46,391 bases of DNA from Ramlibacter sp. (GTDB lineage Bacteria; Pseudomonadota; Gammaproteobacteria; Burkholderiales; Burkholderiaceae_C): NCBI RefSeq assembly GCF_013697775.1, contig NZ_JACCWG010000038.1:1-46391 (forward strand). The letters are read 5' to 3'. Made by a program: the position numbers and the translations under genes. The notes beneath the pieces were generated by a model. It did not search any database. It was not told the DNA's origin and worked only from the letters and a program-made list of their open reading frames with translations. Shown one piece after another: positions 12,889 through 46,391 of the stretch (position 1 is its first letter; each line of letters begins with the position of its first letter).

Positions 12889-13455
12889 ATGACCACCCGC
12901 CCCTCCCGCCTGCCCCTCGATCGGGGCAGCAACGCACCCAGCATCAACACTTTCGGCGGGCTCAGCCATTTCCTGCGAGGCGCGGTGGCTGACGAGGAAA
13001 GCCGCCAGCTGTCGGAAAGCCTGGCCCAGCTGGCCGTGCACATCGAAGCCATCGTGGCAGCGCTGCGGCTGAACCGCCAGCGCAGCATCGTCGCGCCGCA
13101 GCTGGTGGACCTGCTGACCGTGCGGCGTGGCCACCGCCAACTGGTGGTAAACCTGGGACTGCCGTGGCGTGGCCTGTACGAGTACGCCATGTACCTGCAG
13201 GCGCTGAACAACTTCCGCGTGCTGATCGGCCAGTGGCTGCTGGAGGGCGGGCCGGCCAGCCGGGAGCTGATGCTGGGCGCCGAGGATTTCGAGCTGATCG
13301 CCTGGCGAACCCTGGGCGACGGCACGCTGCTGATCGACATGTACGAGCAGTGGCTGTCGCGCGACCCTGCCGAGCCCCCCGCCTCGGCGCTGGGCGAGCT
13401 GCGCGAGCCGCAGGTGCAGCGCGCCGTGGCCTGGTGGAAGAAGTTGCGGCTGTGA
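12889..13455 (+). CDS. Conserved-looking hypothetical protein (188 aa)
   Basis: I do not recognise this gene. It encodes a soluble, mostly helical 188-residue protein without signal peptide or membrane segment. The N-terminal 25 residues are polar and probably disordered. The centre has hydrophobic/basic helices (QLVDLLTVRRGHRQLVVNLGLPWRGLYEY), and Trp residues near the C-terminus end in VAWWKKLRL. Codon use and GC match its neighbours. It starts 18 nt after tldD and is probably co-transcribed. The aroG attenuator begins only some 40 nt downstream of its stop, with no terminator between. Confidence 0.7.
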   Translation: MTTRPSRLPLDRGSNAPSINTFGGLSHFLRGAVADEESRQLSESLAQLAVHIEAIVAALRLNRQRSIVAPQLVDLLTVRRGHRQLVVNLGLPWRGLYEYAMYLQALNNFRVLIGQWLLEGGPASRELMLGAEDFELIAWRTLGDGTLLIDMYEQWLSRDPAEPPASALGELREPQVQRAVAWWKKLRL

Positions 13456-13495
13456 GACAGGGCGCCCGCACGCCGGCTGCGCTGACATGGCCCTG

Positions 13496-13504
13496 TGCTA
13501 CATT
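13496..13504 (+). promoter_or_regulatory. Extended -10 (TGCTACATT) of the aroG leader
   Basis: TG, one base, then TACATT forms an extended -10 element, which can work without a good -35. A CTGACA at 13482-13487 is too close (11 nt) to be a normal -35. The start point would fall around 13511, right at the leader peptide ATG (13512). Confidence 0.45.
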
Positions 13505-13511
13505 GGCCGTC

Positions 13512-13583
13512 ATGCGTTTCGTCCGCCCCTTCTTTTTTGGCTACTTCTGGTTCTCCAACGCCCCCGGCGGAAGAGAGATCTGA
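13512..13583 (+). CDS. Aromatic-rich leader peptide of the aroG attenuator
   Basis: This 23-codon ORF ends in TGA 99 nt before the aroG ATG. Eight of its 23 residues are aromatic: Phe at 3, 7, 8, 9, 12 and 14, Tyr at 11 and Trp at 13, so residues 7-14 read FFFGYFWF. That is the composition expected of a sensor for charged tRNA-Phe, tRNA-Tyr and tRNA-Trp, the three end products of the pathway that DAHP synthase opens. No Shine-Dalgarno precedes the ATG, but a -10-like TACATT lies 7 nt upstream, so the transcript may begin at the start codon. Codons 17-20 contain CCCCCGGCGG (13561-13570), an exact copy of the 3' arm region of the downstream terminator, which allows alternative pairing. Confidence 0.82.
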   Translation: MRFVRPFFFGYFWFSNAPGGREI

Positions 13584-13620
13584 GCGTACGCGCAACAAAC
13601 GCAAACAGACCCCTCGACAA

Positions 13621-13651
13621 ACCGCCGGTACCCCCGGCGGTTTTTTTTTTT
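13621..13651 (+). terminator. Rho-independent terminator acting as aroG attenuator
   Basis: The stem ACCGCCGG (13621-13628) pairs with CCGGCGGT (13634-13641) around a 5-nt loop and is followed by an 11-T run. It lies between the leader peptide stop and the aroG start, so it would end transcription before aroG. CCGGCGG at 13564-13570, inside the leader ORF, can pair with CCGCCGG at 13622-13628 and would then act as the antiterminator. Confidence 0.88.
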
Positions 13652-13682
13652 GGGGCCCCAATCCACCGAGAGGAACCAGCAC

Positions 13683-14807
13683 ATGAACACCACGTCCCCC
13701 GCCGCCAGCGATGCCTGGCATGCGCGCCCCGTCGACAAAACCAGCCAGACCGACGACGCACGCATCAAGGACATCACCGTGTTGCCTCCTCCCGAACATC
13801 TCATCCGCTTCTTCCCCATCCAGGGCACGGCCGTGGAAAGCCTCATCACCGACACGCGCCGCGCGGTCCACAACATCCTGCACGGCAAGGACGACCGGCT
13901 GCTGGCCGTGATCGGCCCCTGTTCGATCCACGACCCCGGCGCCGCTCTGGAATACGCGCGCCGCCTGAAGGAAGTCCGCGCCAAGTACCGCGACCGGCTG
14001 GAGATCGTGATGCGCGTTTACTTCGAAAAGCCGCGCACCACGGTCGGCTGGAAAGGGCTGATCAACGACCCCTACCTGGACGAGAGCTTCCGCATCGACG
14101 AGGGCCTGCGCATCGCGCGGCAGCTGCTGATCGAGATCAACCGGCTGGGGCTGCCGGCCGGCAGCGAGTTCCTGGACGTGATCTCGCCGCAGTACATCGG
14201 CGACCTGATCTCCTGGGGCGCCATCGGCGCGCGCACCACCGAAAGCCAGGTGCACCGCGAACTCGCCTCGGGCCTGTCGGCGCCGATCGGCTTCAAGAAC
14301 GGCACCGACGGCAACATCAAGATCGCCACCGACGCCATCCAGGCGGCCGCGCGCGGCCACCACTTCCTGTCGGTGCACAAGAACGGCCAGGTGGCCATCG
14401 TGCAGACCAACGGCAACCGCGACTGCCACGTCATCCTGCGCGGCGGCAAGGAACCCAACTACGACGCGGCCAGCGTCGAGGCCGCCTGCAAGGAGCTGGA
14501 GGCGGCGCAACTCGCGCCCGCGCTGATGGTGGACTGCAGCCACGCCAACAGCAGCAAGCAGCACGGCAGGCAAGTCGACGTGGCGCGCAGCATCGCCGAG
14601 CAGATCGCGCGCGGCTCGCGGCGCGTGTTCGGCGTGATGGTGGAAAGCCACCTGCAGCCCGGCGCGCAGAAGTTCACCCCCGGCAAGGACGACGCGACGC
14701 AACTTGAATACGGCAAGAGCATCACCGATGCCTGCCTGGGCTGGGAGGAATCGTTGGGCCTCCTGGAGGTACTGGCCGAAGCCGTCCAGGTGCGCCGCGC
14801 CCGCTGA
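13683..14807 (+). CDS. aroG: 3-deoxy-7-phosphoheptulonate (DAHP) synthase, class I
   Basis: A 374-residue enzyme condensing phosphoenolpyruvate with erythrose 4-phosphate, the first step of the shikimate pathway. Class I AroG/F/H motifs are present in order: VIGPCSIHDPGAALEYARRL, VMRVYFEKPRTTVGWKGLIND, GFKNGTDGNIKIATDAI, GNRDCHVILRGGKEPNYD and LMVDCSHANSSKQ. Metal ligands are expected at the Cys of GPCSIHD, the HVILRG segment and the VDCSHA Asp. The ATG was chosen 11 codons into the open frame because GAGAGGAACC lies just before it and the upstream part runs through the terminator T-run. Which aromatic amino acid inhibits the enzyme cannot be told; the leader suggests control by all three. 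Confidence 0.95.
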   Translation: MNTTSPAASDAWHARPVDKTSQTDDARIKDITVLPPPEHLIRFFPIQGTAVESLITDTRRAVHNILHGKDDRLLAVIGPCSIHDPGAALEYARRLKEVRAKYRDRLEIVMRVYFEKPRTTVGWKGLINDPYLDESFRIDEGLRIARQLLIEINRLGLPAGSEFLDVISPQYIGDLISWGAIGARTTESQVHRELASGLSAPIGFKNGTDGNIKIATDAIQAAARGHHFLSVHKNGQVAIVQTNGNRDCHVILRGGKEPNYDAASVEAACKELEAAQLAPALMVDCSHANSSKQHGRQVDVARSIAEQIARGSRRVFGVMVESHLQPGAQKFTPGKDDATQLEYGKSITDACLGWEESLGLLEVLAEAVQVRRAR

Positions 14808-14890: not shown

Positions 14891-15898
14891 ATGACCCTCG
14901 AGCTTCCCGTTTTGCGCTTGGGATTGGCCGGCTTCTCGGCCGAGCAGCAGGATGCCGCGCGTGCGGTGGTGGGCAGCGTGGTGGCCTTCGGCGCGACCTG
15001 GGAGGTGAGCTCCTTCACCGACGCCGACGCCTGGTGGATCAGCGGCCAGCGCACCCAGCTGCTGCCCGACGGCACGCTGCGGGTCGGACCGGGCACGCCG
15101 TCCGGCCGCTCTCTGCAGCTCGACCTTGCGGACGTGGACCGGCCCGTGGCTTTCGCCCGGCCGCTGCCCGGCGCCGGCTTCTCGCCTGCCTACGCCTTCG
15201 ACCTTGCCGAGCGCGCCCAGCAGAATGCGGTGCTGGAACGTTTCGCCGGCTGGCTGCAGCCCGCGATTTCGCAGTTCGCGCTGGCCTCGGTGGTGATCGA
15301 CCAATATGCCGCGCTCGGCGGCGGCAGCTTCCAGGTGATCTTCAACGGCCGGCTGATCGCGGTGGTGAACATGCGTGGCGATGTCGGCGTGCTGCCGTCG
15401 GCCGCGCTGCTCGACTTCGAGGATGCGCTGTGGCGCCGGGTGAGCGAGCCGGCGGAGATTCCCTCAGGTTATGTGCGCCTCAGCCTGTCGCAGCTGATGT
15501 GGCAGTTCGCGATGCGCACCCGCCGCGACATGCTGCCGCCGCGCTACCGCACCGCCACCCTCTATTTCCGCCGGCCGCCGCGGCTGGCGCACCGGCTGCT
15601 GAAGGACTCGCACCTGCTGCTGATGCGCGAACTGGCCAGCGCCCCCGCCACCCTGCGCGAGCTGGCCAAGCGAACCGGCATGGACGAGACGGTTGCCGCG
15701 CATGGCCTGGCCGCGCTGTACCTGGTGGGCACCATCACCTCCAACGCCAAGCGCGCCGCGGCGCTGCGGGATGACGACTCGCTGCTCAGCCGCCCGAACC
15801 TGACCACCGGCGAGCAGGTGCCGGTGGGAATCGCCCCGCCGCGCCGCCGGCTTGCCGGGCCGGACATGACCGCGCCCGTTTCGCTGACGCCCTACTGA
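14891..15898 (+). CDS. Hypothetical protein with C-terminal winged-helix-like segment (335 aa)
   Basis: I do not recognise a named family. The protein is soluble with no signal peptide. Residues about 235-285 (HLLLMRELASAPATLRELAKRTGMDE, then AAHGLAALYLVGTITSN) look like a helix-turn-helix or winged-helix module of the kind ending some regulators. The N-terminal two thirds are a mixed alpha/beta region with an FQVIFNGRLIAVVNMRGDVGVL strand pair. The ATG at 14891 is preferred to an upstream GTG because it follows the promoter and RBS distance better. It is convergent with mpl, whose stop lies 1 nt beyond its own. It may sense or transmit a signal, but nothing firmer can be said. Confidence 0.72.
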   Translation: MTLELPVLRLGLAGFSAEQQDAARAVVGSVVAFGATWEVSSFTDADAWWISGQRTQLLPDGTLRVGPGTPSGRSLQLDLADVDRPVAFARPLPGAGFSPAYAFDLAERAQQNAVLERFAGWLQPAISQFALASVVIDQYAALGGGSFQVIFNGRLIAVVNMRGDVGVLPSAALLDFEDALWRRVSEPAEIPSGYVRLSLSQLMWQFAMRTRRDMLPPRYRTATLYFRRPPRLAHRLLKDSHLLLMRELASAPATLRELAKRTGMDETVAAHGLAALYLVGTITSNAKRAAALRDDDSLLSRPNLTTGEQVPVGIAPPRRRLAGPDMTAPVSLTPY

Positions 15899-46180: not shown

Positions 46181-46391
46181 TTTGTTGCTTGGCAAGGTTG
46201 GTTGACCGCCTCCACTATTTCCGACGGGCGGGCACGCCAACTTGCCGGGGGTAGCCCGGCGGCTACTCACTTTCTTTTTGCGTCGCCAAAAAGAAAGTAA
46301 GCAAAGAAAAAGGCGACCCGATGGTCCGGGTCCCTTCGCTTCGCTGCGGGCAACCTGCGGTGCTCGCCGAAAACGGGGTCGAGCTCGAACT
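46046..46391 (+). other. Non-coding window end: hairpin-rich segment and dispersed terminator-like repeat
   Basis: No gene is supported. 46046-46143, between the two argF tails, holds hairpins GTGTGC-GCA-GCACAC (46098-46112) and GCGGC-ATCAA-GCCGC (46118-46132). Further on, ACTTTCTTTTT (46269-46279) pairs with AAAAAGAAAGT (46288-46298) over 11 bp around GCGTCGCC. This, with the following AAGCAAAGAAAAAGGCGACC-type sequence, is a repeat I recall from many Burkholderiales and Xanthomonadales genomes. It may end argDF transcription, or be the edge of a larger element outside the window. Confidence 0.6.

Follow-up and report, generated by a model that had tools for sequence, protein, structure and literature searches.

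Background

In Corynebacterium glutamicum, a leader peptide with a Phe-Tyr-Phe stretch, aroR, precedes the operon of the DAHP synthase gene aroF, and ribosomes are described as stalling on it upon phenylalanine limitation, with no response to tyrosine (PMC11802643, PMC4046766; primary report by Neshat et al. 2014). As portrayed in those sources, aroR resembles the element reported here in being an aromatic-codon leader peptide ahead of a DAHP synthase gene, and differs in belonging to another phylum and in having three aromatic codons with no tryptophan, a distinction that follows its description and not its sequence. A candidate upstream ORF with a phenylalanine codon, the uORFC-13-1 motif, lies before a terminator and the DAHP synthase gene aroF of Acholeplasma; its account gives 24 sequences from Acholeplasma and unassigned environmental DNA, requires at least one phenylalanine codon only, and presents the motif as a candidate by sequence (PMC8632094). 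The pheL and trpL leaders of gammaproteobacteria are described as working on the same principle of cognate codons, antiterminator and terminator (PMC11802643, PMC2659441), but they control other genes than the aroG element does. A tyrosine-sensing aroF attenuator is mentioned as earlier knowledge, with a citation of Escherichia coli work, in PMC2659441; the portion of PMC2965389 that we consulted holds no attenuator of the aromatic pathway, and PMC5343134, as far as consulted a source focused on transcription factors, places DAHP synthase genes of the gammaproteobacteria that it describes under TyrR and TrpR.

In Sinorhizobium meliloti, the RNA of the trpL attenuator is described as starting at the AUG of the leader ORF (PMC7298713). 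From that description, it shares with our element a leaderless leader ORF (a prediction in our case), and differs in lying before trpE(G), in sensing tryptophan and in belonging to the Alphaproteobacteria. Multivalent ilv leaders are known in which one leader senses several end products, as the aroG element would, the amino acids there being branched-chain rather than aromatic ones.

The sequence analysed here (the window) is a whole contig of 46,391 nt from Ramlibacter sp. (NZ_JACCWG010000038.1), in which a first-pass annotation, made from the letters alone, had proposed an aromatic amino acid attenuator before aroG and had known of no tri-aromatic aroG leader in this group. A literature search by title and start of abstract found, among the matches listed, no attenuator of a Burkholderiales aroG or DAHP synthase gene, preprints and most subscription journals lying outside its scope. 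The supposed novelty therefore stands for the order and not for the type, as C. glutamicum already offers a published example, a DAHP synthase gene preceded by a Phe-Tyr-Phe leader, at least as that system is summarized in the sources above, and the Burkholderiales element is best seen as a new, widespread example of an already known type. The comparison with Rfam suggested by the first-pass annotation gave no match at the gathering score in the window or in nine related loci. The Phe_leader model (RF01859) scored 21.5 bits against the window (gathering score 55) and matched only downstream of the leader ORF, and a relaxed search of the window region turned up seven matches, each of them under the gathering score and confined to the terminator part.

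The leader, terminator and aroG of the window

The features of the locus are collected in Table 1. The leader ORF has eight aromatic residues in its 23 codons, namely F3 and seven among residues 7 to 14, its stop codon is at 13581 and the ATG of aroG is at 13683. The 10-mer CCCCCGGCGG is present twice, at the end of the ORF (13561-13570) and on the 3' side of the terminator (13631-13640), so that the CCGGCGG of region 2 and that of region 4 compete for the CCGCCGG of region 3. The terminator is the single terminator-like site between 13200 and 13800, where shuffled sequences average 0.4. All of this bears out what had been read from the letters: the coordinates of the ORF and its count of aromatic residues were exact, an intrinsic terminator is present (13619-13651), the positions given for the 10-mer and for CCGCCGG were right, and the ORF copy can pair with the 5' arm of the terminator. 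The stability of 13496-13683 folded as a whole is ordinary (z -0.87) and hence lends no support by itself.

Table 1. Coordinates of the aroG leader region within the window
Feature	Position	Strand	Basis
Extended -10 promoter element (predicted), TGCTACATT (TG-N-TANNNT)	13496..13504	+	direct reading; 7 nt 5' of leader ATG
Leader ORF, 23 codons, MRFVRPFFFGYFWFSNAPGGREI, predicted leaderless	13512..13583	+	direct reading and translation
Sensor codons 7-14, Phe Phe Phe Gly Tyr Phe Trp Phe (FFFGYFWF)	13530..13553	+	translation; arm spacing in relatives
Region 2, antiterminator 5' arm CCGGCGG, within leader ORF	13564..13570	+	core kept; pairs with region 3
GAGAG box adjoining region 2; predicted 5' side of helper helix inside antiterminator	13573..13577	+	conservation; pairing counts
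Region 3, CCGCCGG, common to antiterminator and terminator	13622..13628	+	CCGCC in 136/136 elements counted
Intrinsic terminator: hairpin of regions 3 and 4 (10 bp, 5-nt loop)	13619..13643	+	terminator scan; -16.9 kcal/mol
T tract of terminator	13641..13651	+	direct reading
aroG, class I DAHP synthase (3-deoxy-7-phosphoheptulonate synthase)	13683..14807	+	protein family models

The product of aroG matches TIGR00034 with 538.6 bits (cutoff 173.2) and also PF00793, its score of 544.1 against the specific AroG model NF006723 being under the cutoff of 568. For the reading frames on either side of the unit (12889-13452 and 14903-15895), NCBIfam gave no match and Pfam none that reached its cutoff.

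Among the 391 short ORFs of the window (12 to 60 codons, both strands), two reach five aromatic residues in eight and the leader reading frame alone reaches seven in eight, being counted there from an earlier in-frame start at 13434. Dinucleotide shuffling of the 400 nt upstream of aroG gave five sequences with at least five aromatic residues in eight, and none with six or more, in 2,000 trials. A second aromatic-dense short ORF (FFFAYFLF) was seen on the minus strand at 46267-46353, in a palindrome-like stretch at the end of the contig; a 17-mer from it occurs a single time in the genome, and no aromatic-pathway gene was seen adjoining it.

Distribution of the element

An aromatic-dense leader ORF, with at least five aromatic residues in eight, lies upstream of aroG in 61 of 80 related loci, these being the best 80 of at least 591 retrieved with the aroG protein. 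The leader-bearing loci include Polaromonas, Ramlibacter, Variovorax, Hydrogenophaga, Acidovorax, Limnohabitans and Rubrivivax, and further Burkholderia, Caballeronia, Paraburkholderia, Massilia, Janthinobacterium, Rugamonas and one Cupriavidus locus (L078). No aromatic leader was found in the other 19 of the 80 loci, among them Polynucleobacter, Thauera, Rhodocyclus, Azoarcus, Methylotenera, Dechloromonas and two Cupriavidus loci (L027 and L035), as well as one (L022) that cannot be judged from its 7 nt of upstream sequence. Shuffled versions of the 61 leader loci reached five aromatic residues in eight in 26 of 1,220 cases and six in none. A terminator follows the leader ORF in 60 of the 61, and an arm of the GGCGG type is present in the ORF tail of 59 of these 60 leader-terminator loci (60 with the window). 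The locus without a terminator (L071) was left out of the model elements and leaders counted below, and the one without a GGCGG core (L075) out of the arm counts.

A covariance model (R1) was built from 61 elements, those of 60 relatives and of the window itself (alignment A1). With E <= 1e-4 it matches 116 of 120 genomes of the window's family, with one match in each, 63 of 250 genomes of the order (seven of these 63 in the window's own family) and four of 185 genomes of the class, two of the four being outside the order. The matches in the order span 15 family labels, 14 of them with aroG. We read 87 of the matches, comprising the 29 best-scoring of the family besides the window and 58 from order and class. 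An aroG homologue is found at 84 of them, and 81 of these 84 have a leader with at least five aromatic residues in eight no more than 400 nt before it. The remaining three (L172, L177 and L181) fall short of this density and were left out of the set of 142 leaders, which consists of 61 from the named loci and the window plus the 81. The sets of 137 and 136 used below omit leaders without an identified core or CCGCC arm. What we call the family-like set comprises the named loci up to L041, L053, the window and the family genomes read, the named loci being assigned to it by their similarity to the window and not by taxonomy.

Three of the 87 matches lack an aroG homologue: one is at a contig edge (L115), and the other two, both matches of one family label, stand before another gene (L179 and L183). 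These two genomes of one genus label carry an element of the same type (YFYWY leader, GGCGG arm and terminator, at about 428-577 of the reverse strand) in front of a gene of unassigned function, whose protein has no Pfam match above cutoff in L179. A match with an aroG homologue was also seen outside the order, within the same class, in two genomes of one family label (L144 and L145); leader plus aroG may have been transferred.

Genomes that the model does not match gave no aromatic leader in any of 20 aroG loci, the highest density being four of eight; these are the best aroG of each of 20 genomes, out of 28 in a 60-genome sample of the order that have an aroG homologue and no R1 match. By eye, the aroG homologue of L196 and L198 follows, with no leader, a frame resembling the end of tldD; in the window, tldD lies two genes upstream of aroG. 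Within the window's own genome no convincing second copy was found with the RNA model (150 of 2,447 first-look candidates scored), a leader-peptide model or the promoter pattern, and its second DAHP synthase gene is without such a leader. A second match of the RNA model there (E 0.018) looks by eye like a plain terminator before a GreA-like frame.

The upstream reading frame (12889-13455) runs in the same direction as aroG and ends some 160 nt before the hairpin, and the hairpin could be the mere terminator of that gene, the aromatic ORF having arisen by chance. The joint recurrence of aromatic ORF, antiterminator arm and spacing with aroG, along with the failure of any of the 2,000 shuffles to reach six aromatic residues in eight, makes this highly improbable. 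The leader ORF, its aromatic codons and the paired arms, whose conservation in relatives had been named as the test of the attenuation reading, are all three conserved. Occurring once per genome in nearly all of the family genomes surveyed, the element would appear, from these comparisons, to be a real and widespread aromatic amino acid attenuator.

Conservation and pairing of the antiterminator arms

The core of region 2 is GGCGG in 134 of 136 elements and GGTGG in the other two, and the CCGCC core of region 3 is present in all 136, elements without a CCGCC arm being outside the count. Among 60 leaders GGCGG is read in frame 0 in 27, in frame 2 in 32 and in frame 1 in a single one, and the tails of the leader peptides vary with it (PGGRE, PLADRE, TAAGE, PKAVE). 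Being kept despite the different reading frames, GGCGG is conserved as RNA and not as peptide.

The same observation bears on an alternative in which translation is halted by the leader peptide, as an arrest peptide that responds to a free aromatic amino acid or some other ligand, and tRNA shortage plays no part. A similar-looking aromatic block does recur (consensus FYFxYFWF, with F12 at 90% or more). In an arrest peptide, however, one would expect particular residues close to the peptidyl transferase centre to be conserved, whereas in 48 leader peptides the mean column identity is 40% and M1 is the sole invariant residue, and the C-terminal residues shift with the frame of GGCGG. We consider control by an arrest peptide very unlikely.

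The core pairing is nearly invariant, and covariation depends therefore on the two positions flanking regions 2 and 3, which vary, with C-G, U-A, U-G and A-U pairs all being seen. Flank pairs are standard in 214 of 272 cases, against a mean of 185.6 and a maximum of 200 in 20,000 permutations. The family-like set shows no such excess (111 of 124 standard, permutations giving 110.8); beyond it, 103 of 148 are standard against 91.2 expected, a value reached by 2 of the 20,000 permutations. As permutations ignore ancestry, flank covariation is to be read as support and not as proof, and the excess between groups is partly accounted for by common ancestry. No pair changed on both sides was found by RNAalifold in the family-like segment, and with region 4 blocked it gave zero energy on the full-element alignment A1; this alignment offsets region 2 by one column between reading frames, and we used arm-anchored counts instead. 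The matching flank of the terminator is paired at its first position in 59 of 60 elements and at its second in 45.

Pairing of region 2 with region 3 is stronger than in shuffled versions of the segment (p<0.05) for 45 of 60 elements, and the duplex is at least as strong as the terminator in just 26 of 60. The duplex of regions 1 and 2 outdoes its shuffles in 10 of 60 (p<0.05; median p 0.45), and no general conservation of a pause or anti-antiterminator hairpin of these two regions, such as trp and leu leaders have, was found among the 60 elements. When segments from region 2 to region 3 are folded, the core is paired in 134 of 136 minimum-energy structures, an outcome favoured by segments that end at the arms. 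The window RNA cut after region 3 takes the antiterminator fold with a ribosome at codon 7, 11, 13 or 14 (-23.6 to -25.8 kcal/mol) and with no ribosome at all, and the equilibrium fold of the RNA up to the T tract is the terminator at every ribosome position tried. Since equilibrium favours the terminator in the window and the antiterminator is at least as strong in fewer than half of the elements, the antiterminator must win during transcription. An antiterminator arm that shares its partner with the terminator and excludes it is thus conserved in the relatives, with covariation between groups only.

The box GAGAG is present in 74 of 136 elements overall. Across 62 family-like sequences, where it is read in two frames, three of its five positions are invariant and the two others are kept in at least 90%. 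It is predicted to pair with the stretch just 5' of region 3 (5.29 expected pairs, compared with 2.78 when the interior is shuffled), the pairing exceeding the median shuffle in 128 of 136 elements. GAGAG is near-invariant in the family-like set while its predicted partner varies, and the box may serve some additional function, for instance in slowing the ribosome.

Ribosome spacing and the amino acids probably sensed

The last aromatic codon ends 8 to 17 nt before GGCGG in 131 of 137 leaders and 12 nt before it in the window, a count slightly favoured by our taking, among several GGCGG matches, the one nearest the expected spacing. A ribosome with a codon in its A site reaches about 12 to 13 nt beyond the first base of that codon, and this spacing therefore leaves region 2 just free of the stalled ribosome. 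From GGCGG to the stop codon there are at most 11 nt in 44 of the 137 leaders, 12 to 17 in 54 and more than 17 in 39. The earlier claim that a ribosome at the stop codon covers the arm holds for the window, where this distance is 10 nt, and fails to extend to most relatives, as only the 44 have 11 nt or fewer. Elsewhere, to judge from the spacing, the terminating ribosome would mask part of region 2, the GAGAG segment, or neither; where it reaches neither, masking may be the work of the passing ribosome itself. Masking at the stop codon is the weakest part of the attenuation model.

A leader ORF rich in codons for the end products of the pathway, as is characteristic of attenuators, is found in the window and in its relatives. 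Phenylalanine, tyrosine and tryptophan are all present within the densest ten residues in 90 of 142 leaders (56 of 63 family-like, 34 of the remaining 79), the window having all three with a single tyrosine and a single tryptophan codon. That one leader integrates three end products, as first proposed, is consistent with the window and with these 90; it does not carry over to the 48 of 142 leaders with no tryptophan in the densest ten.

A predicted leaderless start

The extended -10 element was not part of the first-pass annotation, which had no promoter, and its placement before the leader ORF is new here. The sequence TGTGCTACATT (13494-13504) followed by ATG 5 to 8 nt further on has one occurrence in the genome. 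TGNTANNNT stands 6 to 9 nt ahead of the start codon in 72 of 142 leaders, including the window (34 of 61 named loci and window, 25 of 28 family genomes, 13 of 53 genomes of order and class), and in 100 of 28,400 mononucleotide shuffles searched over 5 to 9 nt. Pairing with the anti-Shine-Dalgarno sequence at -4.5 kcal/mol or below occurs in none of these 72 leaders, against six of the 70 others. In 67 of the 72 the start codon follows a C or T, so that its own first base is often the earliest purine at which transcription could suitably start. By eye, Burkholderia-type leaders have instead TTATAAA-like sequences about 40 nt upstream. A consensus promoter scan of 13200-13800 found no site; the scan demands a -35 hexamer and is hence blind to extended -10 promoters.

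In these 72 leaders, the window among them, a -10 element is so placed that transcription would start at or next to the AUG, with no Shine-Dalgarno sequence. The extended -10 element would act as a promoter with its start site there, and the leader mRNA is probably leaderless, transcription starting at or a few bases from the AUG.

The terminated leaderless RNA predicted from this, of about 140 nt, resembles the S. meliloti case as described in PMC7298713, and the element could, as reported for rnTrpL and peTrpL of Sinorhizobium, function chiefly through a small RNA or peptide that acts in trans, with attenuation secondary to this though compatible with it. Apart from its aromatic codons, pairing arms and GAGAG box, the RNA shows little conservation, and a mainly trans-acting element seems very unlikely to us.

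Proposed mechanism

The conserved ORF, aromatic codons, arms and terminator of the relatives support the attenuation reading first given, and the element in all likelihood controls aroG by ribosome-mediated transcription attenuation, with charged tRNA-Phe, tRNA-Tyr and tRNA-Trp as the species sensed. Transcription would begin at or near the leader AUG and the leader would be translated as a leaderless mRNA. A shortage of any one of the three charged tRNAs would stall the ribosome within codons 7 to 14; when the last aromatic codon occupies the A site, the front of the ribosome would stop just short of GGCGG at 13566. Region 2 could then pair with region 3, helped by the inner helix, which would block the terminator and allow aroG to be transcribed in response to the amino acid supply. 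When all three tRNAs are charged, the ribosome would proceed to the stop at 13581 and mask region 2, the GAGAG segment or both, leaving region 3 to pair with region 4 and RNA polymerase to terminate before aroG.

Because the transcript is predicted to begin at the leader AUG and a hairpin of regions 1 and 2 is not generally conserved, it is conceivable, if rather doubtful, that the default is inverted: an untranslated leader would form the antiterminator and be read through, and termination would need an active ribosome that has moved past all the aromatic codons. In the trp and his leaders, absence of translation leads to termination, the opposite outcome. The ribosome-free antiterminator fold of the window RNA ending at region 3 argues for an inverted default, and the terminator fold of the complete free RNA against it. 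If it were true, leaderless initiation would make the cell's capacity to start translation a second input alongside the sensing of three amino acids.

Significance

The shikimate pathway begins with DAHP synthase, and in the window's family and further families of the order the gene for it, aroG, appears to be controlled by an RNA element, which offers a mechanism for its regulation there. With the predicted leaderless start, attenuation could be tested cleanly in a leader that has no ribosome binding site. The interest for specialists lies in this start, in the three end products that one leader could read and in the presence of one element per genome in 116 of 120 family genomes. As far as these sequences tell, the element probably lets this bacterium and many of its relatives switch the pathway on when phenylalanine, tyrosine and tryptophan are short.
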